The position numbers were made by a program, and so were the translations under genes. From NCBI GenBank assembly GCA_944380515.1, contig CALWHT010000011.1, forward strand, positions 117,601-181,600: a stretch of DNA of 64,000 nt, in the 5' to 3' direction. Origin of the DNA: an uncultured Roseburia sp. (GTDB taxonomy: Bacteria > Bacillota > Clostridia > Lachnospirales > Lachnospiraceae). Positions 6,474 through 63,895 of this stretch are shown in pieces; the stretch's first letter is position 1; the number at the start of each line of letters is the position of its first letter. Under the pieces are notes generated by a model. That model ran no database searches. It saw only the letters and a program-made list of their open reading frames with translations, and had not been told where the DNA came from.

Positions 6474-6639
6474 GAATGGAGATAGTGTGAAAAATAAGCT
6501 CGATAGCTTATTTTTCACACGCAAACTTGTTTGCGTTGGCTATATTGTGCCGGAGCGTCACAAATAAGCCCTGATGGCAGACGCAAATTGAAGATTTGCG
6601 TCGCCCCGTCGCGTAAAACGCTCCGGAATGGAGATTAGT
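6474..6639 (+). repeat. Dispersed structured repeat, copy A (upstream of rbgA)
   Basis: Non-coding gap filled by an element also present at 17244-17392. Order of parts: GAATGGAGA; a perfect 16-bp stem (6485-6500 with 6505-6520, loop CGAT); a small GCAAAC-TT-GTTTGC hairpin at 6521-6534 that copy B lacks; an outer stem CCGGAGCGT (6550-6558) with ACGCTCCGG (6618-6626) enclosing GACGCAAAT (6580-6588) with ATTTGCGTC (6594-6602); and a terminal GGAATGGAGA that serves as the rbgA ribosome binding site. The GAATGGAGA sequence at both ends resembles a duplicated target. Confidence 0.85.
6487..6567 (+). CDS. Tiny ORF inside repeat copy A (26 codons)
   Basis: GTG start at 6487 with GGAATGGAGA just upstream, encoding a peptide that begins MKNKLDSLFFTR and ends VPERHK. 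Copy B encodes the same ends with 18 bases fewer, an in-frame change. The shared frame and the ribosome binding site suggest translation, but the peptide could be a by-product of the hairpin. Function unknown. Confidence 0.3.
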   Translation: MKNKLDSLFFTRKLVCVGYIVPERHK

Positions 6640-7494
6640 ATGCAGTTTCAATGGTACCCGGGGCATATGACGAAAGCAAAGCGTCAGATGCAGGAGGATA
6701 TAAAATTAATTGATTTGGTGATAGAGCTTTTGGACGCAAGGATTCCACTCAGCAGCAGAAATCCTGATATTGACGAGCTTGGAAAGAATAAAGCGCGCCT
6801 TATTTTGATGAACAAATCGGACTTGTCCGATGAAAAGCAGAATCGGGCGTGGACGCAGTATTTTGAAAAAAAAGGATATTTCGTCATCTGCCTGGATGCG
6901 AGAAGTAAGGCGGGCATGAAGAATGTAACCGATGTCGTGATGAAGGCGTGCCGGGAAAAGATAGAGCGCGACCGCAGGCGGGGGATTTTAAACCGTCCGG
7001 TCCGGGCGATGGTTGTGGGGATTCCCAATGTGGGAAAGTCCACCTTTATCAATTCCTACGCGGGAAGGGCCTGCGCCAAAACGGGGAACAAGCCGGGAGT
7101 TACGAAAGGAAAGCAGTGGATCCGGCTGAATAAAAATGTGGAGCTTTTGGATACGCCGGGGATTCTCTGGCCCAAATTCGAGGATCAGACGGTCGGTCTG
7201 CGGCTTGCGCTGATAGGCGCGATCAAGGATGAGATTCTTAACGTTGATGAGCTGTCGCTGGAGCTGATTAAAATATTGACGGCGGATTATCCGGGCGTGC
7301 TTACGGAACGTTATGGCGTGGACGAGCAGTGTAAGCCGGCAGAGCTGCTGGCGCAGATTGCGGAAAACCGGAAATGTATTTCCAGAGGAAACGAACTGGA
7401 TTATGCAAAGGCAGCAGCGCTGCTGCTCGACGAATTCCGGGCAGGAAAGCTCGGACGGCTGTCGCTGGAGCGTCCAAACGAGGAAACGCCCTGA
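6640..7494 (+). CDS. rbgA: Ribosome biogenesis GTPase RbgA (YlqF)
   Basis: Circularly permuted GTPase needed for late 50S assembly. Motif order is permuted as expected: the G4 motif NKSD (LILMNKSDLSD) comes first, then the P-loop GIPNVGKSTF, G2 NKPGVTKG and G3 DTPGILWP. N-terminus MQFQWYPGHMTKAKRQM is diagnostic. 284 residues. The ATG at 6640 takes its Shine-Dalgarno (TGGAG) from the end of the dispersed repeat, so that element directly shapes translation of this gene. Followed by rnhB after 23 bases. Confidence 0.97.
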   Translation: MQFQWYPGHMTKAKRQMQEDIKLIDLVIELLDARIPLSSRNPDIDELGKNKARLILMNKSDLSDEKQNRAWTQYFEKKGYFVICLDARSKAGMKNVTDVVMKACREKIERDRRRGILNRPVRAMVVGIPNVGKSTFINSYAGRACAKTGNKPGVTKGKQWIRLNKNVELLDTPGILWPKFEDQTVGLRLALIGAIKDEILNVDELSLELIKILTADYPGVLTERYGVDEQCKPAELLAQIAENRKCISRGNELDYAKAAALLLDEFRAGKLGRLSLERPNEETP

Positions 7495-7517
7495 TGGCGG
7501 CGGATAGGAGGAATACA

Positions 7518-8279
7518 ATGCAGGAGAAAACAATCGGGCAGATTCGGGAGGAGTATAAGGCAGCAGGCGACGGAATGCTGCCTTCTTTTATCGAAACCTA
7601 TGAGACAGACAGACGCAGCGGTGTGGAAAAGCTTGTAGAGCAGGCCAGAAAGCGTCTCGAAAAGCTTGCGGCGGAGCGTGCCCGGATTGAGGAACTGAAA
7701 AAATATGAAAGAGAATATGATACATACGACTATATCTGCGGAATCGACGAAGCAGGCAGAGGACCGCTTGCAGGGCCTGTCGTGGCAGGCGCGGTGATTC
7801 TTCCGAAGGACTGCGGCATTTTATATATCAATGACTCCAAAAAGCTTTCCGCCTCAAAGAGGGAGGAGCTTTATGAAGAGATCATGGAGAAGGCCGTCGC
7901 CGTGGGTGTCGGAATGGCGTCCCCGGCACGGATTGACGAAATCAATATTTTACAGGCTACTTATGAAGCCATGCGTGAGGCTATAAGCAAATTAAGCGTA
8001 AAACCCGATATATTATTAAATGATGCGGTGACGATACCTGAAGTTCCCATCCGCCAGGTTCCGATTATCAAAGGGGACGCGAAAAGCATTTCCATCGGTG
8101 CGGCGAGTATTATTGCGAAGGTCACAAGGGACAGGCTGATGGTGGAGTATGATAAAATAATGCCGGAGTATGGCTTTGCGTCCAATAAGGGCTACGGCTC
8201 CGCAGAGCATATCGCGGCGCTTAAGGTTTACGGGCCGTCGCCGATTCACAGAGCGAGCTTTATCAAAAATTTTGTATAG
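7518..8279 (+). CDS. rnhB: Ribonuclease HII
   Basis: Cleaves the RNA strand of RNA-DNA hybrids, including single ribonucleotides left in DNA. Of 253 residues the first 70 form a helical N-terminal extension usual in Firmicutes. The catalytic core starts at YICGIDEAGRGPLAGPVVAG (Asp-Glu pair), then NDSKKLS and ASIIAKVTRDRLM. ATG at 7518 follows AGGAGGAA; the frame is open further upstream, overlapping rbgA, but without a start signal. Same neighbours (rbgA before, FliK-like after) as in Bacillus subtilis. Confidence 0.97.
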   Translation: MQEKTIGQIREEYKAAGDGMLPSFIETYETDRRSGVEKLVEQARKRLEKLAAERARIEELKKYEREYDTYDYICGIDEAGRGPLAGPVVAGAVILPKDCGILYINDSKKLSASKREELYEEIMEKAVAVGVGMASPARIDEINILQATYEAMREAISKLSVKPDILLNDAVTIPEVPIRQVPIIKGDAKSISIGAASIIAKVTRDRLMVEYDKIMPEYGFASNKGYGSAEHIAALKVYGPSPIHRASFIKNFV

Positions 8280-8300
8280 CGGGGATTGTGAGGAATGGTC

Positions 8301-10139
8301 ATGCAGATTACGGATAAGCTGGGACAATATAACCAGAACGTGAAAAACGGAACAGAGGAGCTTATGAGCGCGCAGGGAGCCCAGAAGCTGGTGTCAACGA
8401 CGCAGGAGCTGGAGGTGGGTAACATTTTTGAGGGAACCGTAAACAGTGTGAGAAACGGTAAGGTGGTACTGGCGCTCGGAAACGGACAGCTTATTTCGGC
8501 ACGGCTGGACGGAAAGGTTTCGGTGACGCAGGGGGAATCCATGTTTTTTCAGGTGCGCTCCAACGATGGAACTACGGTTGCAATTCGTCCCTACGTGCAG
8601 GCTGGGCATATCAACAATCCGATTCTTTTAAATGCGCTGACTGCGGCGGGAGTTCCGGTCACCGAGCGGAGTCTTGCAATGGTGGACGAGATGATGAAAG
8701 CGCAGATGTCTATAGACCGGCAGAGCATCCTCGACATGACAAAGATTTTAAACGGCAATCCGGATGTGAAGGTATCGACGCTTGTTCAGATGACAAAGTC
8801 GGGACTTCCGGTGACGAAAGCGCTTGCCGCGCAGTTTGAAAATTATCTGGCGGACCACAGGGCGCTTACGGGAGAAATCGGGGAGGCCGCCGGACGGCTT
8901 AGCGCGTTGCTCGGAGATAAGAGCCTGCCTGCTGAGTCGGCGTTTCGTCTGTATGCCCAGATTGTGGATATTTTAGGCGGAAAGGCGGATATTACCGCAA
9001 ATCTTTTGGAAGGCGCCGCAGTACAGGAGCTGTCCGCTGCTGCGGGCAGCGGCAATGCGCAGGGAATGCAGGAGACGACCGGCAGCGTGAACGCACAGAG
9101 TCTGCCGAATGCCGCGGCCGGGGAAGAAATGCAGGGTCCCGCTGTGACGGAGGAGGCTTTGTGGCAGGCGGCAAAAAACGGGAGCCTGAGCAAAGCCGTA
9201 AGCGGCGGAATACTTTTGGAGCAGCTTTTCAACGGTGAAGAGCTGTCAGGCTTAAAAAAGCTGCTGCAGAATATACCGACGCTTACCGGAAACACGGCGG
9301 TTTTTGAGCCGACAGGCGGAGAGGAAATTTTTGTAGATACGATGTCCGCAGAGGAAGCAGGGCAGGGAGCGAGCCTTGATGCTGCGGCGAAAATGCCCGC
9401 TGCCGAAGCCGCCTTAAGACAGAATATGACGGTGACAGAGTTTCTTAACGCGCTTCGCGGCGCATTGCAGGAAAACAGCCAATATGGCTTTGCGGGAGTG
9501 CAGCGGCTGTTTGGGAGTAAAGAATTTGCACAGATTTTAAAGCAGGCAATCCTGGAGCAGTGGACGCTTAGGCCGGAGGAATTAAAGGAGTCCGGCAGGG
9601 TGAGCGAGCTTTATCAAAAGCTTGGATCCCAGTTAAGCCAGATGGAGAGCGCCGTCAGGGCTGCCGGGGTGACACAGGGCGGCTTTCTTGACGCGGCTGC
9701 GAATATGCAGGCAAACGTTGAATTTATGAATCAGCTCAATCAGGTCTATACCTATGTTCAGCTTCCGCTACGGATGGCGGGGCAGAGCGCTTCCGGGGAA
9801 CTGTATGTCTATACAAATAAAAAGAATCTGCGGGATCCGGAAGCGGAGCTGACCGCATTTCTTCATCTGGATTTGAATCACCTCGGCTCTACGGACGTTT
9901 CGGTGCGTATGAGGCAGAAAAATGTCAAGGCAAATTTTTATATTTCGGATGATGCTGCCTACGGGCTGGTGAAAAAGCATCTTCCGGTACTGGAAAAGCG
10001 TTTGAAGCAAAAGGGCTATCTGTGTGCGGTCACCGTGACGAACGAAGGGAAAAAGGTCGGATTTGTCGAGGATTTTCTGCAGAGAGACATGCCGCAGACC
10101 GGGACGCTGCACCGTTATTCGTTTGATGTGAGGGCTTAA
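8301..10139 (+). CDS. FliK-like protein (YlqG type, flagellar hook-length control domain)
   Basis: 612 residues. The N-terminal part (EVGNIFEGTVNSVRNGKVVLAL) resembles the small barrel of FliK/YlqG proteins. The middle (about 240-300) is Ala/Gln/Gly-rich and probably disordered. The C-terminal 130 residues match the FliK C-terminal domain, with LNHLGSTDVSVRMRQKNVKANFYI. In flagellar systems that domain talks to FlhB; here the next gene encodes an FlhB C-terminal-like protein, but no flagellar genes are near. The same orphan pair follows rnhB in Bacillus (ylqG-ylqH). ATG at 8301 is chosen over 8295 because GAGGA is six bases ahead of it. Function unproven. Confidence 0.75.
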   Translation: MQITDKLGQYNQNVKNGTEELMSAQGAQKLVSTTQELEVGNIFEGTVNSVRNGKVVLALGNGQLISARLDGKVSVTQGESMFFQVRSNDGTTVAIRPYVQAGHINNPILLNALTAAGVPVTERSLAMVDEMMKAQMSIDRQSILDMTKILNGNPDVKVSTLVQMTKSGLPVTKALAAQFENYLADHRALTGEIGEAAGRLSALLGDKSLPAESAFRLYAQIVDILGGKADITANLLEGAAVQELSAAAGSGNAQGMQETTGSVNAQSLPNAAAGEEMQGPAVTEEALWQAAKNGSLSKAVSGGILLEQLFNGEELSGLKKLLQNIPTLTGNTAVFEPTGGEEIFVDTMSAEEAGQGASLDAAAKMPAAEAALRQNMTVTEFLNALRGALQENSQYGFAGVQRLFGSKEFAQILKQAILEQWTLRPEELKESGRVSELYQKLGSQLSQMESAVRAAGVTQGGFLDAAANMQANVEFMNQLNQVYTYVQLPLRMAGQSASGELYVYTNKKNLRDPEAELTAFLHLDLNHLGSTDVSVRMRQKNVKANFYISDDAAYGLVKKHLPVLEKRLKQKGYLCAVTVTNEGKKVGFVEDFLQRDMPQTGTLHRYSFDVRA

Positions 10140-10165
10140 CGCGTAAATTCGGGGAGGAACGGACG

Positions 10166-10480
10166 ATGTGGTTTGACGCGGGAAAACAGAAAAAAGAAGA
10201 AAAAGAAAAAACGGCCGTTGCGCTTGCCTATGAGCCGGGCGATGCCGCGCCGAAAATCCTCGCTACAGGAAAAGGCGAGCTGGCGGAGCGCATCATTGAA
10301 AAGGCAAAGGAAAACGATGTGCCGCTCTATGCGGACCATAAGCTTGCGGAAACACTTTCGAAGCTTCGGATTGGAGATACCATACCGCCGGAGCTGTATG
10401 AGGTTGTTGCGGAAATCCTGGTATTTGTAGACGATATGGACAGGATGAAGGCAAAGCTTGACAAGGCAGGGCTGCTTTGA
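10166..10480 (+). CDS. FlhB C-terminal domain-like protein (YlqH type)
   Basis: 104 residues resembling only the cytoplasmic C-terminal part of the flagellar export switch FlhB: TAVALAYEPGDAAPKILATGKGELAERI and VGDTIPPELYE-like IGDTIPPELYEVVAEILVFVDD. The autocleavage motif NPTH of true FlhB is absent; a Lys/Glu stretch (KKEEKEKT) occupies that place. No membrane segment. Partner of the FliK-like protein upstream. Probably not an export switch; role unknown. Confidence 0.8.
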   Translation: MWFDAGKQKKEEKEKTAVALAYEPGDAAPKILATGKGELAERIIEKAKENDVPLYADHKLAETLSKLRIGDTIPPELYEVVAEILVFVDDMDRMKAKLDKAGLL

Positions 10481-10492
10481 CGGAGGATTTCT

Positions 10493-10846
10493 ATGAATAA
10501 GAGGAAGGTCGGCGCGGCCTATGAAAAGAAGGCGGGGGAATATCTTGCCTCCTGCGGCTATGAGATTTTGGAATACAATTACCGCTGCCGCATCGGAGAA
10601 ATAGATATCATCGCCAGAGACGGGGAGTACCTTGTATTTGTGGAGGTAAAATACCGGAGAGATGAGGGCAGCGGAAATCCGCTGGAGGCGGTGACACCGG
10701 CAAAGCAGAGGGTGATTTGCAGGGTAGCGTCCTATTATCTTTATACCCACGGGTACGGTGAGGATATGCCCTGCCGTTTTGATGTCGCCGCCGTTTTGGG
10801 AAAACAGGTGAACCTGGTAAGAAATGCGTTTGAATATCAGGGCTGA
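10493..10846 (+). CDS. yraN: YraN family (UPF0102) endonuclease-like protein
   Basis: 117 residues with the UPF0102 signature GEIDIIARDGEYLVFVEVKYR, a restriction-endonuclease-like fold whose acidic residues and lysine are all present. Biochemical role is unsettled; the fold suggests a Holliday junction or structure-specific nuclease. GGAGG precedes the ATG. Its stop overlaps the next ATG by one base (TGATG), suggesting coupling. Confidence 0.93.
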   Translation: MNKRKVGAAYEKKAGEYLASCGYEILEYNYRCRIGEIDIIARDGEYLVFVEVKYRRDEGSGNPLEAVTPAKQRVICRVASYYLYTHGYGEDMPCRFDVAAVLGKQVNLVRNAFEYQG

Positions 10847-11775
10847 TGCTTTTTGACGGCAGGCGTTTTGCCGCGTCAGGGAGGGCATGGAAAGGAATAG
10901 ATACAGTGAACAGAAAAATACGAAAAGGCGGCGAAACGCTGCGGGAAGATTGGTACGCTGCGGCGGAGGGGGAAGAAATGCTCCTTTTGCGTTTTCCGCT
11001 GTTAGAGCAGACCGGGCTTGTGGAGCACTGCTTTACGGGCAGGACGGGAGGCATCAGCGAGGGGATATTTTCTTCCTTAAATTTAAGCTTTTCCCGTGGA
11101 GATGAAAGGGAGGCCGTTGCGGAAAACTTCAGGCGTCTGGCGAAAGCGCTGCGGACGGATGTGTCAAAATTTGTATTTACGCACCAGACGCATACCACGA
11201 ATGTGCGCGCCGTGACGGAAGCGGACGCCGGCAAGGGGCTGACAAAAGAACTGGATTACCATGATGTTGACGGCCTGATTACGGATGTGCCGGGGCTGGT
11301 GCTGTCGACCTTTTATGCGGACTGTGTGCCGCTTTATTTTGTGGATCCGGTACACCGCGCCATCGGTCTTAGCCATTCCGGCTGGAAGGGTACTGTGGGA
11401 AGAATGGGTGCGGTGACGGCGGAGGCCATGCAAAGGGAGTACGGTACTGCTCCCGAGGATCTGTACTGCGCCATAGGTCCCTCTATCTGCATGGATTGCT
11501 ATGAGGTGAGCGAGGATGTCGCGGATGCGTTTCGGCAGGAGTTTGCCGGAAAAGAAAAGGATATTCTTTTCGATAAAGGAAACGGTAAGTACCAGCTTGA
11601 TTTGTGGAAGGCAAACGAGATTGTGCTGACAGAGGCGGGGGTACGGCCCGAGCGCCTTGCGGTGACGGATATTTGTACCTGCTGCAATCCCGATTTGCTT
11701 TTTTCTCATCGGGCAAGCAGGGGCAGACGCGGAAACGTAGGAGCGTTTCTTTATCTGCGGGAAGACGGGAATTAA
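10846..11775 (+). CDS. pgeF: Purine nucleoside phosphorylase PgeF (YlmD/YfiH, LACC1 family)
   Basis: Multi-copper-oxidase-like family now assigned as a cytosolic purine nucleoside phosphorylase/adenosine deaminase linked to peptidoglycan editing. Metal-binding and core motifs are visible: THQTHTTNV, FYADCVPLYF and GLSHSGWKGT, then CAIGPSICMDCYEV and CTCCNPDLLFSHR. From the ATG overlapping yraN the protein is 309 residues. A GTG at 10906 with AAAGGA ahead gives 289, closer to the usual 270-280, and is a real alternative. Confidence 0.92.
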   Translation: MLFDGRRFAASGRAWKGIDTVNRKIRKGGETLREDWYAAAEGEEMLLLRFPLLEQTGLVEHCFTGRTGGISEGIFSSLNLSFSRGDEREAVAENFRRLAKALRTDVSKFVFTHQTHTTNVRAVTEADAGKGLTKELDYHDVDGLITDVPGLVLSTFYADCVPLYFVDPVHRAIGLSHSGWKGTVGRMGAVTAEAMQREYGTAPEDLYCAIGPSICMDCYEVSEDVADAFRQEFAGKEKDILFDKGNGKYQLDLWKANEIVLTEAGVRPERLAVTDICTCCNPDLLFSHRASRGRRGNVGAFLYLREDGN

Positions 11776-11858
11776 GAAATTGACAGAAACAGAGACAGAA
11801 CAGATGGGCACTGCTCGTTGCTTAATAAAATCTTCATAATATCATAGGATTATCTTTA

Positions 11859-11914
11859 TTGTGCGGGACAAAGCCTCCATGCTATAGTTACCGTATGAGA
11901 GAAAATAGTACGGT
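11859..11914 (+). promoter_or_regulatory. Promoter and candidate operator of the GntR-ABC cassette
   Basis: TTGTGC (11859-11864) and TATAGT (11883-11888), 18 bases apart. Just after the expected start lies ACCGTA (11890-11895) and its inverted copy TACGGT (11909-11914), plus a direct repeat of AGTACGG. This fits autorepression by the GntR protein encoded next. Confidence 0.5.
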
Positions 11915-11938
11915 TAGTACGGACGGGAGGTTATCTGT

Positions 11939-12313
11939 TTGATACAGTTAAATTATCGTGATTCCAAACCGATTTATGAACAAATCAAAGACGGACTCAG
12001 AAAACTGGTAATATCAAATTCTCTTTCTGCGCATGAAAGACTGCCATCGGTCCGGGAGCTTGCGGCGAAGCTGGCAATCAACCCGAATACGATTCAGAAG
12101 GCGTACCGCGAATTAGAGAGCGAGGGCTATATTTATACGGTCGTGGGGAAAGGCACGTTTGTTGCAGAACGGGAAGAGGTCTTTGACACAAGGCAGCAGG
12201 AGTTGTTGACGGAATTTGATGAGATTGTGGAGGAACTCTTCTTTTTGTCTGTAAGGGAAAAGGAGCTGATTACGCGCATGAATCATTTGGCGGAAGGGAG
12301 GACCAAAAAGTGA
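11939..12313 (+). CDS. GntR family regulator, YtrA type
   Basis: 124 residues: a winged-helix DNA-binding domain (IYEQIKDGLRKLVISNSL, LPSVRELAAKLAINPNTIQKAYRELESEGY) followed by a short dimerisation helix pair, as in the YtrA subfamily that controls adjacent ABC transporters. The start codon is TTG at 11939 with GGGAGGT eight bases upstream; family members start MIQLNYRDS in the same way. The stop overlaps the GTG of the ABC ATPase (GTGA). The likely effector is unknown. Confidence 0.9.
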   Translation: MIQLNYRDSKPIYEQIKDGLRKLVISNSLSAHERLPSVRELAAKLAINPNTIQKAYRELESEGYIYTVVGKGTFVAEREEVFDTRQQELLTEFDEIVEELFFLSVREKELITRMNHLAEGRTKK

Positions 12314-13209
12314 TACAGGTAAGCCATTTGGAAAAATCTTTCGAGGGATTTGCGGCTTTAAAAGGCGTGGATATGCATGTCGGCAAGGGTGATATTTACG
12401 GTCTTGTGGGGCCGAACGGAGCCGGAAAATCGACGCTGATCCGTCATATTACGGGAGTTTACCGGCCGGATGCCGGGGAGGTCTTAATCGACGGGCAGCC
12501 GGTCTATGAAAATAAATCGGTGAAGGCAAAGTTTGCCTATATTCCGGATGAATTGTTTTATTTTATGCAGGCGGATACAATGGAAATGAAGCGTTTTTAT
12601 GAGGGAATTTATCCTCAGTTTGACGCAAAGCTTTTTTACCGCATGCAGGAATTTTTCCCGAATATTGATGTAAAAAGGAATATCAGACGGCTTTCAAAGG
12701 GGATGCAGAAGCAGGTGGCGTTCTGGCTGGCAATCTGCTGCAAGCCGGAGCTGATGATTTTGGACGAGCCTGTGGACGGACTGGATCCTGTCATGCGGCG
12801 GCAGATTTGGAATATCATTATGTCCGAGGTGGCGGAACATCAAATGACGGTTTTGGTGTCCTCTCATAATCTCAGGGAGCTTGAGGACGTCTGCGACCAT
12901 GTGGGAATTATGCACGAGGGGAAAATTATGATTGAGCGGTCGCTGAGCGATCTGCAGGGCAGCGTCACCAAGATTCAGGTTGCCTGCCAGAGCGGAATGC
13001 CAAAGCTTCCGGCGGATTTTGAGGTGCTTCACATGTCGAATATCGGACGCGTCTATACGCTGATTGTAAAGGGAAATCCCAGGGAGGCGGAGTGCGCGCT
13101 GGCGGCGGCGGACCCGACGATTGTGGACGTGCTGCCCCTAACGCTGGAAGAAATATTTATTTATGAAATGGGAGGTGCTGATTATGAAGTCAAAGACATC
13201 CTGTTTTAA
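12310..13209 (+). CDS. ABC transporter ATP-binding protein (YtrB/CcmA type)
   Basis: 299-residue ATPase with Walker A GLVGPNGAGKSTLI, signature LSKGMQKQV (variant of LSGGQ), Walker B LMILDEPVDGLD and switch histidine SSHNLRELED. The last 90 residues are the regulatory extension common to exporters with GntR neighbours. GTG start with GGGAGG ahead. It shares 26 bases with the permease gene. Likely exports a toxic compound or peptide; the substrate cannot be told. Confidence 0.92.
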   Translation: MIQVSHLEKSFEGFAALKGVDMHVGKGDIYGLVGPNGAGKSTLIRHITGVYRPDAGEVLIDGQPVYENKSVKAKFAYIPDELFYFMQADTMEMKRFYEGIYPQFDAKLFYRMQEFFPNIDVKRNIRRLSKGMQKQVAFWLAICCKPELMILDEPVDGLDPVMRRQIWNIIMSEVAEHQMTVLVSSHNLRELEDVCDHVGIMHEGKIMIERSLSDLQGSVTKIQVACQSGMPKLPADFEVLHMSNIGRVYTLIVKGNPREAECALAAADPTIVDVLPLTLEEIFIYEMGGADYEVKDILF

Positions 13210-15097
13210 CGCGACGATTTTTAAGAAAAATATCACGCACTACTGGCCTATCTGGCTGGTGTATCTTGGATATTTGATGGCAGTGCTTCCGATTAATATC
13301 TGGCTTCGCACAACGACGAAAACTTATTATGAAAGCATGACGGCCGCGGCCAGGCAGTATTCCATTATCGGCGGAGTGCTTTCCTCGGCGATTTCTCCGG
13401 AACCGGTATTCGTGTTTTCAGCTGCCGCGGCGCTGGCGGTATTTTGTTATCTGTATACGGCAAAAAATGCAAACATGATTCATTCGCTCCCGGTCAATCG
13501 GCTGGAGCTGTATGTGACCAATTATCTGTCCGGGTTTCTGTTTTTGTTTGTGCCGGAGGTCATTGCGTTTGTATCGGCGGTGCTGGTCTGCCTGGCAAAC
13601 CAGATTGTGTGTATTCAGTATTTGTTTCTGTGGTTTTTATGCATTGCGGGAATTACATTTCTGGCATATTCGCTTGCCGTGTTTGCCGCGATGTTTACAG
13701 GGCAGATTGTTGCCATGCCGTTTTATTATCTGATTATGAATTATCTGTATGTCGGCTGCCTGTATTTGATCAACCAGGTGGTCAGCCTGCTCTGCTATGG
13801 GATTTCTTCCACATGGAATCCCGGGGTATCGGGTATACTTTCACCGTTGTACTGGCTTTCGGAGAATATGCGTGTGGAAAGTCTGTATGATGATAAAACA
13901 GGGCAGATAACGGGAGTGGCCGTGAGCGGAGGAAATTATGTGGCAATCTATGCGGCTGCTGCCATTGTACTTACGGTTTTGGCTTACCGCTTATATAAGA
14001 GCCGCAGAATTGAGACGGCGGGAGACGTTGTCAGCATCGGAGTGTTAAAGCCGATACTCCGGTGGGGGCTTGGCCTGTATGGAGGTATGGTGTTTGCCGC
14101 GGGCGTGACGGCTTTGCTGCAGCAGTACCGGCAGGTTAATGAATATCTGGGGTTTCTGCTGTGCGCCGTGGTTTTCGGATTTCTCTGCTTTTTTGCCGCA
14201 GAGATGGTGCTGCAGAAAAATTTCCGGGTATTCCGTAAAAAAAGAGTGCTTGAGTGGGCGGTGTTTACGGCGGCCATGGCGGTTATGGTTACACTGTTTC
14301 GGGTGGATGCTTTCGGAATTGAAAAGCGCGTGCCCGCGGCGGAGGATATCAGGCGTGCGTTTTTGAATATGGATTATCCCATGGAAATAGAGGATGAGGA
14401 TGTCCCGGCAATTTTGGCGCTGCAGCAGCAGTGCATTGAAGATAAGCAGCAGAATCTTGAAGCGTTCCGGGAGGGGAAGGACTATTATTACACGACCTTC
14501 CGTTATTATATGAAGGACGGCTCTGTGTTTGAGCGCCGTTATCCGGTCGCGGTTAAAGAGACGCAGCTTGCGGACGAAACGTCTGTAGCTTCCAGAATAC
14601 TGTCTATGGAAAGAGAGCCGGAGCGGCTTCTCACTCAGCTGTTTGGAAGGGGCTATGAGGGAAATGATTATTATTCCGGGTATATAGATTTGTATGACGA
14701 ACGCGGCAATTCCGATACTTATGTATTTAACGAGGAAGAAATGGAAATTGTCCTGGGGGCGATTGAGGCGGACGTCTGGGAGGGCAATTTTGACAGCTAT
14801 CAGCTGCTCAGCATTTATGGAGAAAATGAGCCGGCCTATATGAACGGAATTTCTTTCTCTTATTATAACAGAGACGGTTTTTACGATAATTGGGATTATT
14901 ATTATAATTATGACAGTTATCAGGGCAGCGGCGAACAGGCGGTTGCTATGTCAGGCGCCGGAACCTGCTATATTTCCTTCGGTCCCGCGTGTGAAAACAC
15001 CATTGCGGCGCTTCGGCAAATCGGGGCTGTGAACGATGAGTGGAAGTTGTATACCTACAGCGAATACGAAAAAACACAGCAGGCTGTCGAACAGTAA
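13184..15097 (+). CDS. ABC transporter permease, large membrane protein with C-terminal extracytoplasmic domain
   Basis: 637 residues. About seven to nine hydrophobic segments lie in the first 400 residues (for example PIWLVYLGYLMAVLPINIWL, LFLFVPEVIAFVSAVLVCLA, FLLCAVVFGFLCFFAAEMVL). The last 230 residues are hydrophilic, rich in Tyr, Asp and Glu (YNRDGFYDNWDYYYNYDSY), likely outside the membrane or a regulatory tail. ATG at 13184 follows GGGAGGTG; the gene overlaps the ATPase. I do not recognise a named family beyond ABC-2-like permeases of GntR cassettes. Confidence 0.85.
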   Translation: MKSKTSCFNATIFKKNITHYWPIWLVYLGYLMAVLPINIWLRTTTKTYYESMTAAARQYSIIGGVLSSAISPEPVFVFSAAAALAVFCYLYTAKNANMIHSLPVNRLELYVTNYLSGFLFLFVPEVIAFVSAVLVCLANQIVCIQYLFLWFLCIAGITFLAYSLAVFAAMFTGQIVAMPFYYLIMNYLYVGCLYLINQVVSLLCYGISSTWNPGVSGILSPLYWLSENMRVESLYDDKTGQITGVAVSGGNYVAIYAAAAIVLTVLAYRLYKSRRIETAGDVVSIGVLKPILRWGLGLYGGMVFAAGVTALLQQYRQVNEYLGFLLCAVVFGFLCFFAAEMVLQKNFRVFRKKRVLEWAVFTAAMAVMVTLFRVDAFGIEKRVPAAEDIRRAFLNMDYPMEIEDEDVPAILALQQQCIEDKQQNLEAFREGKDYYYTTFRYYMKDGSVFERRYPVAVKETQLADETSVASRILSMEREPERLLTQLFGRGYEGNDYYSGYIDLYDERGNSDTYVFNEEEMEIVLGAIEADVWEGNFDSYQLLSIYGENEPAYMNGISFSYYNRDGFYDNWDYYYNYDSYQGSGEQAVAMSGAGTCYISFGPACENTIAALRQIGAVNDEWKLYTYSEYEKTQQAVEQ

Positions 15098-15214
15098 AAG
15101 CTCCGGCCGTCCGGCACGCTTGATTTTGCCTCCAAAGAGACGTATAATATCAAAAAAGCAGCATGGTCTTTTGAAACTGTAAGATAAAATACCGAAGCTC
15201 AATCAGAAAACTGC

Positions 15215-15243
15215 TTTACAATCGACGGAGTATATTGTAAAAT
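15215..15243 (+). promoter_or_regulatory. Promoter of der-plsY
   Basis: TTTACA (15215-15220) and TAAAAT (15238-15243) with a 17-base spacer, 36 bases before der. Confidence 0.6.
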
Positions 15244-15278
15244 CAAGCGGTCAGTTGGAAGAAGGAGAAAAACAGCTT

Positions 15279-16607
15279 ATGAGTAAACCTGTAGTAGCGA
15301 TCGTGGGCCGTCCGAACGTTGGAAAATCAACCTTGTTCAACGCGCTTGCGGGCGAACGGATTTCCATCGTAAAGGATACGCCGGGCGTGACCAGGGACAG
15401 AATTTATGCCGAGGTCACCTGGCTTGACCACAATTTTACCATGATAGATACCGGAGGCATCGAGCCGGACAGCAAAGATGTTATTTTATCACAGATGCGG
15501 GAGCAGGCGGAGATTGCGATCGCAACGGCGGACGTTATTATATTTCTCACCGATGTAAGGCAGGGATTGCAGGATTCCGACGCAAAGGTGGCGGACATGC
15601 TCCGTCGGTCCGCAAAGCCCGTGGTGCTTGCAGTGAATAAGGTGGACAGCTTTGAAAAGTTCATGCCGGATGTCTATGAATTTTATAATCTCGGTATCGG
15701 CGACCCGGTGCCGATTTCGGCGTCCTCCAGACTTGGGCTCGGAGACATGCTTGACGAGGTCGTGCGGCATTTTCCCGCTTATAACAAGGAGGAAGCGGAG
15801 GATGACCGCCCGAAGGTGGCAATCATCGGAAAACCGAATGTCGGCAAGTCATCTCTGATTAATAAGCTTGCGCAGGAGGAGCGCGTGATCGTGTCCGACA
15901 TTGCGGGAACGACCCGGGATGCCATTGACACAGACATTAAGTATAACGGGAAAGAATATGTATTTATTGATACGGCGGGGCTTCGCCGGAAAAATAAAAT
16001 AAAAGAAGAGATTGAGCGTTACAGCATTATCCGTGCGGTGACAGCGGTGGAGCGCGCGGACGTCTGCGTTATCGTGATTGACGCCACGGAGGGCGTGACG
16101 GAGCAGGATGCCAAGATTGCCGGAATCGCCCATGAGCGGGGCAAAGGAATCATTATCGCGGTCAACAAGTGGGATGCCGTGGAGAAGGATGATAAGACGA
16201 TTTATCGGCACACAGAGAAAATACGGCAGATTTTGAGCTTTATGCCCTATGCCGAAATTTTATTTATCTCGGCGAAATCGGGGCAGAGGTTAAATAAGCT
16301 TTTTGAGCTGATTGATGTTGTCATTGAAAATAACAGTCTGCGGGTAGCCACCGGAGTTCTCAACGAAATCGTGACGGAAGCGGTAGCCATGCAGCAGCCG
16401 CCGTCAGATAAGGGTAAGCGCCTGAAAATCTATTATACCACACAGGTGGCGGTAAAACCGCCGACCTTTGTCATCTTTGTCAATGACAGGGAATTGATGC
16501 ATTTTTCCTACACGCGTTATCTGGAAAACCGAATCAGGGACACCTTTGGTTTCCGGGGAACCGCCTTAAAGTTTATTATTCGGGAAAGAAAGGAAGAACA
16601 GTCATGA
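15279..16607 (+). CDS. der: GTPase Der (EngA)
   Basis: Essential double-GTPase of 50S assembly, 442 residues. G domain 1 has [15 protein letters not shown] and NKVD; G domain 2 has [19 protein letters not shown] and NKWD; the C-terminal KH-like domain ends in [15 protein letters not shown] at 15279 has AAGGAG ten bases upstream. The stop overlaps plsY by four bases (ATGA). Confidence 0.98.
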
Positions 16608-17245
16608 TAGGCGCAAGGATTGCAGCGTTGTTGATAGGGTATTGTCTGGGACTGTTTCAGACAGGTTATATATACGGGAAATGGCACGGCATTGACATCA
16701 GGAGCAAGGGAAGCGGCAATGCCGGCACGACAAATACCCTGAGGGTACTCGGGTGGAAAGCAGGATTGATTACGTTTGTCGGCGATTTGCTTAAGGCAAT
16801 TCTGGCAGTATGTATTGCACGTTTCCTGTTTGTGGGGAAATATCCGGAAATCATTCAGGTGCTGGAGCTTTATGCGGGCTTTGGAGCGGTGCTTGGCCAT
16901 AATTTTCCTTTTTATCTGAAATTTCAGGGCGGTAAGGGCATTGCCTGTACGGCGGGTGTCATCCTTGCGGTCTGTCCGCAGGCGGCGCCAATCTGTCTGG
17001 TGCTTTTTGTGGTTCCGGTTGCAGTTACGAGGTATGTTTCCCTCGGCTCGATTCTCGTGGTGACGGGGTATCTCATTCAGGCGGTGATATTCGGACAGCT
17101 GGGCTATCTTGGGATCCAGGCGGAATATCTGCCGGAATTTTACATTGTGAGCGCTTGCTTTACGGGGATGGCGCTGTGGCGTCACCGGGCCAACATGAAG
17201 CGTCTTTTGACAGGAACCGAAAATAAACTCGGCGCGAAAAAATGA
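16604..17245 (+). CDS. plsY: Acyl-phosphate glycerol-3-phosphate acyltransferase PlsY
   Basis: Membrane enzyme that transfers the acyl group from acyl-phosphate to glycerol-3-phosphate, the first step of phospholipid synthesis. 213 residues with five or so membrane segments. Conserved motifs: [34 protein letters not shown] and a third glycine-containing loop. Overlap with der suggests coupling. gpsA, which makes its substrate glycerol-3-phosphate, follows after the dispersed repeat. Confidence 0.96.
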
Positions 17246-17392
17246 ATGGAGAGTAGTGTGAAAAATAAGCTCGATAGCTTATTTTTCACACGGCTATTTG
17301 TGCCGGAGCGTCACAAATAAGCCCTGATGGCAGACGCAAATTTGAGATTTGCGTCGCCCCGTCGCGTAAAACGCTCCGGAATGGAGAGTAAT
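17244..17392 (+). repeat. Dispersed structured repeat, copy B (upstream of gpsA)
   Basis: Second copy of the element at 6474-6639, nearly identical. The 16-bp stem is 17256-17271 with 17276-17291; the outer stem is 17303-17311 with 17371-17379; the inner hairpin is 17333-17341 with 17347-17355. The 18 bases around the GCAAAC hairpin of copy A are missing. It again begins with GAATGGAGA and ends with GGAATGGAGA as the ribosome binding site of the next gene. Confidence 0.85.
17258..17320 (+). CDS. Tiny ORF inside repeat copy B (20 codons)
   Basis: GTG start, peptide MKNKLDSLFFTRLFVPERHK, the same frame as in copy A. AATGGAGAG lies just upstream. Whether it is translated is unknown. Confidence 0.3.
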   Translation: MKNKLDSLFFTRLFVPERHK

Positions 17393-18406
17393 ATGAAAAA
17401 AACAGCGGTAATCGGAGCGGGAAGCTGGGGAACGGCGCTTTCACTGGTACTGCATAACAACGGCAATGAGGTTGCCGTCTGGTCAATTGTGGAAGACGAG
17501 ATAAAAATGCTCCGTGAAAAGCATGAACATATCGAGAAACTTCCGGGAGTAAAGCTGCCGGAGGATATTTTATTTACTACGGATTTAAAGGAAGCAATCG
17601 AGGGAATGGATTATTTAATCCTGGCGGTTCCGTCCATTTATACCAGAAGCACGGCGAAAGCCATGGCGCCCTTTGTGAAGGAGGGGCAGGTGATTGTCTG
17701 CGTGGCGAAAGGAATTGAGGAGAGTACGCTGATGACGCTCTCCGAGGTTGTGGAGCAGGAGATCCCGGCGGCGGACGTGGCGGTCATGTGCGGACCGAGC
17801 CATGCGGAGGAGGTCGGGACAGGTCTGCCGACGACGGTTGTGGCGGGTGCGCGCAAGAAGAAGGTTGCCGAGGGCGTTCAGGATATTTTCATGAACGAGG
17901 TGTTCCGCGTTTATACCAGCCCGGATGTGCTGGGAATGGAGCTTGGCGGTTCGCTGAAAAATGTCATTGCCCTTGCGGCCGGTATGGCAGACGGGCTCGA
18001 CTATGGCGACAACACCAAGGCGGCGCTGATTACGCGCGGAATTTCAGAGATTGGAAGACTGGCTATCCGCATGGGGGCAAAATATGAGACCTTAAGCGGA
18101 CTTACGGGAATCGGCGATTTGATTGTGACCTGTGAGAGCCGGCACAGCCGAAACCGCAGGGCGGGTATGCTCATAGGACAGGGCTATACCATGCAGCAGG
18201 CCATGGACGAGGTGAAAATGGTTGTGGAGGGAGTTTACTCCGCAAAGGCGGCGATTGCGCTGGCACGCAAATATGATGTGAGCATGCCGATTATTGAGGA
18301 AATCAACAAAGTGCTTTTTGAGGATAAACCGGCAAAGGAAGCAGTCAGAGAGCTGATGCTGCGCGACAGGAAGGAAGAACACAGTAATCTTGAGTGGCAG
18401 GAATAA
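17393..18406 (+). CDS. gpsA: Glycerol-3-phosphate dehydrogenase [NAD(P)+]
   Basis: Cytosolic enzyme that reduces dihydroxyacetone phosphate to sn-glycerol-3-phosphate for lipid synthesis. 337 residues: N-terminal Rossmann loop [10 protein letters not shown], then [10 protein letters not shown], the substrate-domain motif [14 protein letters not shown] with the catalytic lysine, and [13 protein letters not shown] at 17393 uses TGGAG supplied by the repeat; the frame is open further upstream through the repeat but that stretch is not coding. Follows plsY, its metabolic partner. Confidence 0.97.
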
Positions 18407-62473: not shown

Positions 62474-63802
62474 TTATGTTGCGCGGTATATAAAATACCG
62501 TGGCCTTCGGAAGTGGGCGGTTTTCAGTCTGGGATGCTGACGTTCATTTCGAAGAGGAATCAGTTCTTTGCAGAGCAGGGACATCACATCTATGGGGTCT
62601 TTTTCCGTAGTCAGACGGAGAAAGACCCTGCAAATATGGGCGGCTATGCTGAAATTCACTTTGTATCCATGTTTGGTGTTTCCCTTTTTTATAATTGTAT
62701 GATTGATAAGAGTTTCCGTCATGTTATAGGTGATCAGTTTTGCCCATATTTCCTGTTGGATGTATTCGGGCTTACAGGCATGAAAGTTGCTCAGCCCGAT
62801 TGTATATTTCAGCTTGCGGAAAGAACCCTCAATAGCCCATCTGGAAGCATAGAGCTGTTTGATGCGTTCCGGAGGGAATTCCTCTGTAGGCAGATTGGTA
62901 ATGATGCATTCATAAGAATCTTCGGATATCGGGAATCTTACAACGCGGAAAGACAGGTCGTAGGAATCAAGGGAACCATAGGCCAGATAGTCAAACGTAG
63001 CATTGGCATCCACATAGCGCCTGTAAGATCCTTCCCTGATGGGAATTTTTCTTTTGTTGCTGCGCACAAGGGTAACGCTTACAGGGAGATCAAAAGAGTC
63101 TTGGTCAGGGAGAACAAAGTTTTTTACAATACCCTTGGAATGGATATCTTTTGTACGGAAAAGAAAGTACTGTCCTTTTTCGAGGACATGTGCCATGTTG
63201 TTATAAGAGCAGTAGCCCCTGTCGCCGATAAAGACATCCCTGGTGCCAGGCAGTTGGATGTGGCGGTCAACCATGTCACAGAAAGCCTGGAATTCATCCT
63301 TGTGATGGATGGGCTGGATCAGGGCATCCGTATAGGTATGCTTCTGCAGGTCATAGAAAGCATTCAGGTGCATGCTGTAAAATCCTTTTGCCGAATGACC
63401 CTCTGAGACATAGTATTCGGGAGAAGAAAAAGAAGGCTTGCTGAAAAAAGTAAATGTAGAGCCGTCTGCGGCAAGGAAGCGGTAGCCGGAGGCTTTATCC
63501 ATAGCCGTGACGGAGGAATGAAACAGACGGAAAACAGCCTCGAGAGCGTCAGGTTTTAGTTTCGCACGCTGCTGGTTAAAAGCAGAAGCGGAAGGCGCTT
63601 TTGGATCAAGGCCGAAGAAATCGAGAAGTTCCAGTTTGGTGCTGGAAGAACCGCAGGAAACCAGGAAAGAAATGAGTTTGGAAGCGCCCATCTTCCTGTT
63701 ACGGATCAGATCCCTGTTAGGGTCAGTGGTATAGAGTGAAATATTAGAAGCAACAAGGTTAACTGCATCAGAAAAGGCAGTTTTGATGGAATCGTGTGTC
63801 AT
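62474..63802 (-). CDS. IS4-family transposase
   Basis: 442 residues, DDE type: first Asp in FLAADGST, second in FIGDRGYCS, and the Y-(2)-R-(3)-E-(6)-K signature in YASRWAIEGSFRKLK, which defines the IS4 family. The frame is intact, so the element may be active. ATG at 63802 follows AAGGAGGT; further in-frame codons upstream lie in the leader hairpin. The Shine-Dalgarno is partly buried in a hairpin, see the leader entry. Confidence 0.93.
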   Translation of the reverse strand: MTHDSIKTAFSDAVNLVASNISLYTTDPNRDLIRNRKMGASKLISFLVSCGSSSTKLELLDFFGLDPKAPSASAFNQQRAKLKPDALEAVFRLFHSSVTAMDKASGYRFLAADGSTFTFFSKPSFSSPEYYVSEGHSAKGFYSMHLNAFYDLQKHTYTDALIQPIHHKDEFQAFCDMVDRHIQLPGTRDVFIGDRGYCSYNNMAHVLEKGQYFLFRTKDIHSKGIVKNFVLPDQDSFDLPVSVTLVRSNKRKIPIREGSYRRYVDANATFDYLAYGSLDSYDLSFRVVRFPISEDSYECIITNLPTEEFPPERIKQLYASRWAIEGSFRKLKYTIGLSNFHACKPEYIQQEIWAKLITYNMTETLINHTIIKKGNTKHGYKVNFSIAAHICRVFLRLTTEKDPIDVMSLLCKELIPLRNERQHPRLKTAHFRRPRYFIYRAT

Positions 63803-63814
63803 AAAAGTGTACCT

Positions 63815-63895
63815 CCTTGGATTACAAAGACTATACTTACAATCCAAGGGCCGCACTCGCTACCTCTTTTTATATAATCAGTAGCGAGAGCGGCC
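63815..63895 (-). promoter_or_regulatory. Transposase leader with two hairpins, one covering the ribosome binding site
   Basis: On the transcript, the stem AATCCAAGG/CCTTGGATT (63841-63849 with 63815-63823) includes the AAGG of the AAGGAGGT Shine-Dalgarno. Upstream a 15-bp stem with one mismatch joins 63849-63863 and 63881-63895. Such leaders in IS10 and IS50 block translation of transcripts that enter from outside. Confidence 0.65.

Follow-up and report, generated by a model that had tools for sequence, protein, structure and literature searches.

Results

Two copies of a structured element before rbgA and gpsA

The 64,000-nt window analysed here belongs to the genome of an uncultured Roseburia sp. 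(a draft of 3.07 Mb, hereafter G000) and contains two copies of a small structured element, each lying between the Shine-Dalgarno (SD) sequence and the start codon of a gene. The gene behind the first copy is rbgA (YlqF family, ATG at 6640, NCBIfam TIGR03596), and the gene behind the second is gpsA (ATG at 17393, NCBIfam NF000942). A covariance model of the element was built from 48 copies. The features are, in window coordinates:

6478..6481, plus: displaced host SD GGAG of rbgA, upstream of the element and before the small open reading frame (ORF); the same SD stands directly before the ATG in the empty allele of a related species, G006
6484..6633, plus: element copy 1 (AGTGTG...GGAATGGAG); covariance model match 6482-6633, 150.5 bits
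6485..6520, plus: hairpin 1 of copy 1, 16 perfect bp with a CGAT loop; two-sided changes at 7 of 16 pairs in the 48 copies
6487..6567, plus: small ORF of copy 1, GTG start, 26 codons and TAA
6521..6538 (limits approximate), plus: optional extra hairpin region, the 18-nt difference between the copies, from the alignment of 48 copies
6550..6558, plus: 5' strand of the P2 pseudoknot of copy 1, CCGGAGCGT, in the P1 loop (TTGTG 6545-6549 / CACAA 6559-6563)
6576..6605, plus: P4 internal hairpin of copy 1 (GGC-A-GACGCAAAT / ATTTGCGTC-GCC); two-sided changes at 5 of 7 inner pairs
6618..6626, plus: 3' strand of the P2 pseudoknot of copy 1, ACGCTCCGG; from covariation and a pattern count in the window
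6627..6633, plus: replacement SD AATGGAG for rbgA, borne by the element, near-constant across the 48 copies
17248..17251, plus: displaced host SD GGAG of gpsA, from the empty allele in G006
17255..17386, plus: element copy 2; covariance model match 17253-17386, 165.7 bits
17256..17291, plus: hairpin 1 of copy 2, from the sequence
17258..17320, plus: small ORF of copy 2, 20 codons and TAA
17292..17323, plus: P1 hairpin of copy 2 (GGCTATTTGTG / CACAAATaAGCC), with the P2 5' strand as its loop (17303-17311)
17329..17358, plus: P4 internal hairpin of copy 2, from covariation
17371..17379, plus: 3' strand of the P2 pseudoknot of copy 2, from covariation and a pattern count in the window
17380..17386, plus: replacement SD AATGGAG for gpsA, borne by the element, near-constant across the 48 copies

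The coordinates and anatomy that a preliminary description had given for the two copies were correct on re-reading of the sequence, including a perfect 16-bp stem in each (6485-6500/6505-6520 and 17256-17271/17276-17291), GAATGGAGA at both ends of the element and a shared small frame. It had also drawn a 9-bp outer stem, CCGGAGCGT/ACGCTCCGG, enclosing a 9-bp hairpin, GACGCAAAT/ATTTGCGTC; both helices are present, but the simple nesting has to give way to a pseudoknot. One GGAG stands upstream of the element in both copies and a second forms its last four bases, 6 nt before the ATG. From the left end to the right GGAG, copy 1 measures 147 nt and copy 2 129 nt, the difference being the 18-nt hairpin of copy 1.

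A DNA search found the window copies to be 86% identical across 31-203 of the query. With up to 2 mismatches allowed, the 16-mer at the right end of the element has two matches in the window where 0.02 would be expected. Hairpin 1, with up to 3 mismatches, has two on the plus strand for an expectation of 0.00, and its minus-strand matches are its own palindrome; these counts are so far above expectation that chance is excluded. The covariance model found no third full copy in the window, and the matches on the other strand are only the two palindromic hairpins. An ATG in CTGATGGCA inside copy 2 (17327-17392) is in frame with gpsA, and the ATG within the element SD (6628) is in frame with rbgA, so that both genes are given too early a start when ORFs are listed mechanically (359 instead of 337 amino acids for gpsA). 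Genes behind other copies may be mis-started in the same way.

Filled and empty sites

Neither window site holds the element in G006, which has GAATGGAGATTAGTATG before rbgA and GAATGGAGAGTAATATG before gpsA. This is the rule between the two genomes: 24 of 31 distinct comparable sites hold the element in only one of them. Among the 24 copies of G000, 14 have no counterpart in the corresponding G006 leader and 7 occur in both genomes (loci L003, L009, L010, L016, L020, L014 and L015), while the other 3 (L012, L022 and L024) could not be placed or were not queried. Conversely, 10 of the 17 G006 copies are absent from G000 and 5 are shared (the L003, L009, L010, L016 and L020 sites), L098, which was not located, and L086, which was not queried, standing outside the count.

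All empty alleles present a purine-rich, mostly SD-like stretch, then a spacer and the start codon, the weakest being that of L006/L255 (GAAAG); at L023 and L007, the sequence farther upstream aligns poorly between the filled and the empty allele. Filled alleles read, from left to right, host SD with part of its spacer, element, the element's GGAATGGAG, and host spacer or ATG. The host's own spacer follows the element GGAG at L001, L005, L081, L083, L093 and L099, and at L004, L006, L008 and L095 the element brings its ATTA spacer too. The pairing of an empty SD-spacer-ATG with a filled host SD-element-element SD-ATG points to insertion in the spacer between SD and start codon, with a replacement SD supplied by the element.

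The preliminary description had pictured an element that duplicated the ribosome-binding site on insertion. Empty alleles do contain a single SD, but the right GGAATGGAG is mostly the element's own and no duplication of constant length accompanies it; L088 is an exception, in that its right SD (TGAGG) is similar to that of the host. The two spacers, left and right, show only a weak mutual resemblance (p 0.02-0.04, n=31), and the apparent duplication seems to be, in part, the element's own target-like end. At L324 and L200, elements are nested, the new one lying immediately after the other's SD.

Position relative to start codons

From 84 loci in 8 genomes, 14 were set aside for want of a recognisable hairpin 1 and 6 for want of a usable right end, which left 64 copies from 6 genomes, a few orthologous pairs included. 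In 60 of these, a start codon with an ORF in the gene's sense follows 4-10 nt after the terminal SD, at 6 nt in 35. The left flank holds GGAG, GAGG or AGGA within 15 nt in 42/59 copies, at a varying distance.

An independent pattern scan of named genomes, with a query that contained no ATG, returned at least 116 stretches. Among the matches listed (116 loci), 98 of 118 right-end matches had a start codon 3-12 nt further on, and the ORF behind it either comprised 40 codons or more or ran past the end. The same matches, sorted by what else was recognisable, stood before a start codon in 35/37 cases where both P1 and the P2 5' strand could be seen, in 32/38 with only one of the two, and in 31/43 with the right end only. 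Random positions gave 16%, a control that is too easy because any GGAG may be an SD; other GGAG sites and other GAATGGAG sites were therefore used instead. Of the other GGAG sites of these loci, 2086/9008 (23%) precede a start codon with an ORF.

Structure of the RNA

Across the 48 copies, 93% of cells are standard pairs, and two-sided changes occur at 22 of 48 pairs against 10.7 in shuffles. The covariation score (0.155 against 0.082) exceeds all 500 shuffles and all slid versions, although these statistics ignore phylogeny. The P2 pseudoknot has two-sided changes at 4/9 pairs. In P1, the outer pairs vary together across genera (two-sided changes at 2/6 outer pairs, 77.5% of cells paired); taken alone, P1 scored 330 against a shuffled mean of 321.9 and maximum of 327, a weak test because its TTTGTG/CACAAA core is nearly constant. 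As the loop of P1 (the ATTTGTG/CACAAAT hairpin) is the P2 5' strand, the two helices make up a loop-tail pseudoknot, and AATGGAG comes directly after it. P4 is a removable internal hairpin. Even the minimal forms L216 and L217 (75-92 nt) retain, by eye, hairpin 1 and P1 as well as a short pseudoknot and the SD.

Several structural variants were seen. An additional optional hairpin (ATTTTCTGAAAGAAAAT) in the P4 arm of L004, L006, L022, L024 and L099 implies that modules are gained or lost independently. The L203 and L206 subfamily ends in CTCAGAAATGAGG, in which pseudoknot strand and SD have both changed (CTCA/TGAG); such a joint change would be consistent with an alternative hairpin that hides the SD. 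Short forms (L108, L110, L118, L176, L342, L281, L285 and L345), in which hairpin 1 is joined straight to the terminal SD or the P1 5' arm to the P2 3' strand, resemble slippage deletions across stems.

In nested folding without the pseudoknot, the terminal SD was unpaired with a mean probability of 0.49, compared with 0.41 after shuffling of the element body, and it lay above the shuffled control in 47/59 copies.

The small ORF

An NTG stands at the base of hairpin 1 in 54/64 copies, and in 20/22 copies of other genera. It is GTA in 7/64, and these copies carry compensating changes on the other hairpin arm (in L091 through a G-U pair). Copies of G000 and its closest relatives as a rule encode the peptide MKNKLDSLFFTR...VPERHK, but a KNKLDSLFF-like start remains in only 7/22 copies of other genera. 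It appears, then, that the hairpin and the NTG are kept and the peptide is not, and the small ORF is probably not under selection as a peptide. We rejected it as a conserved product, since hairpin compensation overrides the start and the peptide is seldom kept in other genera; for the same reasons the earlier proposal of a conserved reading frame falls, and the 18-nt difference between the window copies, once taken as a sign that the frame is kept, corresponds to one of several optional hairpins. The spacing between the displaced host SD and the NTG is a normal one, and would give this end the look of an imitated translation-initiation region.

Family size and spread

A DNA search of G000 gave 55 matches, of which 24 places, on many contigs, were taken as full-length copies, the remainder being partial copies or the palindromic hairpin read on the other strand. 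Such matches were found in 9/40 genomes, G000 included, and most genomes of the same genus had none. Of 392 genomes sampled evenly across the order, the covariance model matched 35, representing 23 of 173 genera, and 26 of the 35 belong to the window's own family. In the pattern scan, 59 of 80 titles among the matches listed name Lachnospiraceae or one of its member genera, and most of the others are other Clostridia or unnamed bacteria; L282, L296 and L333 come from unrelated phyla. Some of the right-end-only matches must be due to chance, as such a 16-mer is expected in 257 billion bases.

The exact hairpin is absent from IMG/VR, and a plasmid search gave no element match. Four unannotated faecal 'Bacteriophage sp.' scaffolds do match (MT838414.1, MT836788.1, MT837007.1 and MT836394.1), three of them across 92-95% of the query, and may represent chromosomal contamination. 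A 15-base right-end pattern occurs in 63 viral stretches, of which many are expected by chance at that length. None of 4227 Rfam families reaches its gathering score, the few matches up to E 10 lying far below, and no description of such an element appeared among the papers listed by the literature searches. As far as these searches go, the family is apparently undescribed.

Age and decay of copies

Full copies are mostly not common to G000 and G006, whereas partial or degenerate copies were shared in 9/9 cases compared (12 were queried and 3 not found). Since they are shared between species, truncation most plausibly reflects decay or domestication. Hairpin 1 is still present in two of the nine (L179 and L176). 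The shared partial copies include those in the leaders of genes whose N-terminal sequences suggest dnaK, an fmt-like gene and an ornithine carbamoyltransferase-like gene. In the old partial copies L187/L386, L177/L391 and L185/L387, P1 and P2 are kept, with other parts diverging between species in some, and the copies begin near promoter-like sequence (e.g. TTGACA...TAATAT, by eye). The core of old partial copies looks as if it had become a permanent leader.

Search for a mover

No enzyme family was present in every element-carrying genome searched; the search covered Y1, TnpB, RVT_1, PF00239 and DDE_Tnp_1, and tyrosine recombinases and other DDE enzymes lay outside it. The genomes are drafts, in which absence is no proof. 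Y1 transposase (PF01797) had no match in G000, the sole genome searched for it. Among six genomes, TnpB (PF07282) was absent from G000, G006, G015, G023 and G030 and present in G002. RVT_1 (PF00078), sought in 30 genomes of which 16 carry the element, was absent from 7 of the 16 (G000, G002, which is 82% complete, G023, G030, G312, G323 and G382). Among 16 genomes, serine recombinase (PF00239) was absent from G312 and G076, and DDE_Tnp_1 was absent from 10/16. A pairing scan of canonical hairpins with right ends in 385 loci of at least 2.5 kb, some of which hold the same copy, yielded no cargo-bearing copy: 86 of 88 left/right pairings were shorter than 260 bp and the other two were 280 and 429 bp.

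The window itself contains a 460-aa ORF with a DDE_Tnp_1 domain (62474-63856, minus strand; domain at G000:C11:180320-181090), an insertion sequence (IS) copy at the contig end.

Discussion

Our results make it likely that the sequence found before rbgA and gpsA is a mobile element, non-autonomous and about 75-170 bp long, which inserts in a single orientation in the spacer between SD and start codon and carries a replacement SD. The proposals of the preliminary description that the repeat is dispersed, mobile and structured, and that it hands its 3' SD to the next gene, find support in the 24 full-length copies in G000 and the 23/173 genera, in the filled and empty alleles of orthologous leaders, rbgA and gpsA among them, in the covariation test, and in the 60/64 copies that place an SD 4-10 nt before a start. 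In filled alleles the original SD remains upstream, and the near-constant GGAATGGAG at the 3' end of the element lies 4-10 nt (mostly 6) ahead of the host start, so that the host gene would still be translated, from a new ribosome-binding site. The fold may insulate and expose the new SD, which would make insertions near-neutral and allow the element to spread into the leaders of important genes. The displaced host SD, for its part, would start the small GTG, ATG or TTG ORF, which may be a by-product or a sink for that SD. The moving form would join its ends as GGAG-spacer-NTGAAAAA, in mimicry of a translation-initiation region; such mimicry would explain both the choice of target and the retention of the NTG while the peptide is lost. 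That the element preserves translation would be a safer statement than that it regulates it, and the stronger argument for preserved translation is the properly spaced SD before the start in nearly all copies.

More tentatively, the element may stand for a new class of mobile element that targets the translation-initiation region, its joined ends imitating an SD and a start, and that is moved by some recombinase or by host machinery. Each insertion would then split one ribosome-binding site and make another. We regard this extension as possible but rather less probable than its opposite.

Several observations weigh against the insertion we propose. The junctions are fuzzy, the overlap between the left and right host matches ranging from -10 to +27 nt in 23 filled/empty pairs, and neither precise recombination nor a duplication mechanism is proven by them. 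This variable overlap leaves no constant target duplication, and the fixed target-site duplication that rbgA and gpsA alone had suggested is thereby ruled out. Four of the 64 copies have no downstream ORF (L009, L012, L089 and L104). Under the stricter control, other GAATGGAG sites stand before a start codon in 28/61 cases, so position counts that rely on the right end alone carry less weight than they seem to. The gain in SD accessibility over the shuffled control appears modest, in a nested fold from which the pseudoknot is left out. Moreover, neither a transposase for the element nor an autonomous copy was found in the searches above.

It could be argued that the sequence is a cis-regulatory RNA, riboswitch-like or an attenuator, which arose at these genes or was recruited to them and regulates their translation, for instance by a switch between the pseudoknot and a CTCC:GGAG hairpin that would conceal the SD, under control of translation of the small ORF. 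A covarying pseudoknot lies directly 5' of the SD, as in a conserved leader structure, the NTG of the small ORF is widely retained within and beyond the genus, old copies, one of them at dnaK, keep their core in two species, and a local CTCC-GGAAT-GGAG hairpin is possible in most aligned copies. However, presence or absence at 24/31 sites between G000 and G006 goes with no fixed gene set, and the named hosts (rbgA, gpsA, dnaK and the fmt-like gene) are unrelated, host genes not having been classified systematically. Rfam gave no match, the small-ORF peptide is lost in 15/22 copies of other genera, and the CTGC subfamily (L100, L101 and L105) cannot pair with GGAG, for which reason the switch is kept only as a rival. 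We consider this explanation unlikely.

Two other routes of mobility seem still less probable, and about equally so. A retroelement resembling a short interspersed nuclear element, in which the SD region at the 3' end of a transcript is primed by target DNA and reverse-transcribed, would account for the constant 3' end, the many 5'-truncated copies that first prompted the idea, and the variable junctions. It is weakened by the partial copies, common to G000 and G006 in all nine comparable cases, in which truncation resembles decay, and by the lack of RVT_1 in seven many-copy genomes (drafts, G002 being 82% complete). An IS200/IS605-like single-strand element with hairpin ends, using GGAG as target or cleavage site and a Y1 transposase acting in trans, would suit the subterminal hairpins, the lack of terminal inverted repeats and of a fixed duplication, the target-like right end, and the one orientation relative to the target. 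Against it stand the varying distance from GGAG to the left end, the lack of Y1 in G000, the sole genome searched, and that of TnpB in 5 of 6 element-carrying genomes. Finally, a mere local duplication of one leader within the region, named in advance as the alternative and in keeping with the 86% identity of the window copies, is refuted for practical purposes by the 24 full-length copies on many contigs, the copies in other genera and the empty sites in a relative.

An element of this kind would have a way to live in operons and before important genes, such as rbgA, gpsA and dnaK, without obvious silencing: a gene is cut off from its own ribosome-binding site, and the site is then replaced. 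Copies that stay can become permanent leaders, so that some 5' untranslated regions and start-site annotations of Lachnospiraceae may be of mobile origin. Presence and absence between close species provide natural filled/empty pairs for measuring the cost of replacing a ribosome-binding site, and the enzyme that moves the element is a concrete target for further search.

We file the element with the small non-autonomous mobile repeats because it is short, dispersed and without a moving gene of its own, while the features that define miniature inverted-repeat transposable elements (MITEs) are lacking. Like MITEs, it is shorter than 600 bp, non-coding, multi-copy and dispersed. By inspection it has no terminal inverted repeats, the left end AGTGTGAAAAAT and the right end CTCCGGAATGGAG not being mutual inverted copies; the 23 filled/empty pairs show no target duplication of fixed length, and the 88 pairings no autonomous relative with the same ends. 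REP sequences are extragenic and occur in alternating orientations. The REP/RAYT system, in the available part of its source, resembles the present case in that hairpin repeats spread in trans, and differs in that REPs are extragenic (PMC2817692); Y1 has no match in G000.

The remaining comparisons likewise rest on parts of the sources cited. IStrons and self-splicing introns also make an insertion harmless to the host gene (PMC4227781), but they splice out of the RNA, whereas the present element seems to remain part of the mRNA, where it substitutes for the ribosome-binding site; the window has no Rfam intron match, and G000 has neither a Y1 nor a TnpB protein. Rickettsia palindromic elements are likewise small, palindromic and mobile, tolerated by a special fit into genes and provided with a conserved small ORF, but they insert in frame inside ORFs, whereas insertion here is before the start codon (PMC10969869). 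BOX, RUP, SPRITE, ERIC, Correia and YPAL repeats are, like the present element, shorter than 200 bp, dispersed, non-autonomous and transcribed into folded RNA, some with small ORFs (PMC3049150, PMC2229807, PMC10969869); BOX ORFs lack an SD (PMC3049150), and YPAL likewise has no TA ends and has duplications of variable size (PMC2229807). In the parts of these sources available, small repeats are described with terminal inverted repeats, TA ends and target duplications, and SD targeting is not among their features (PMC3049150, PMC10969869, PMC2229807). Unlike them, the element before rbgA and gpsA has neither inverted repeats nor a constant duplication, is strictly oriented, occupies only the spacer between SD and start codon, and brings a replacement SD.

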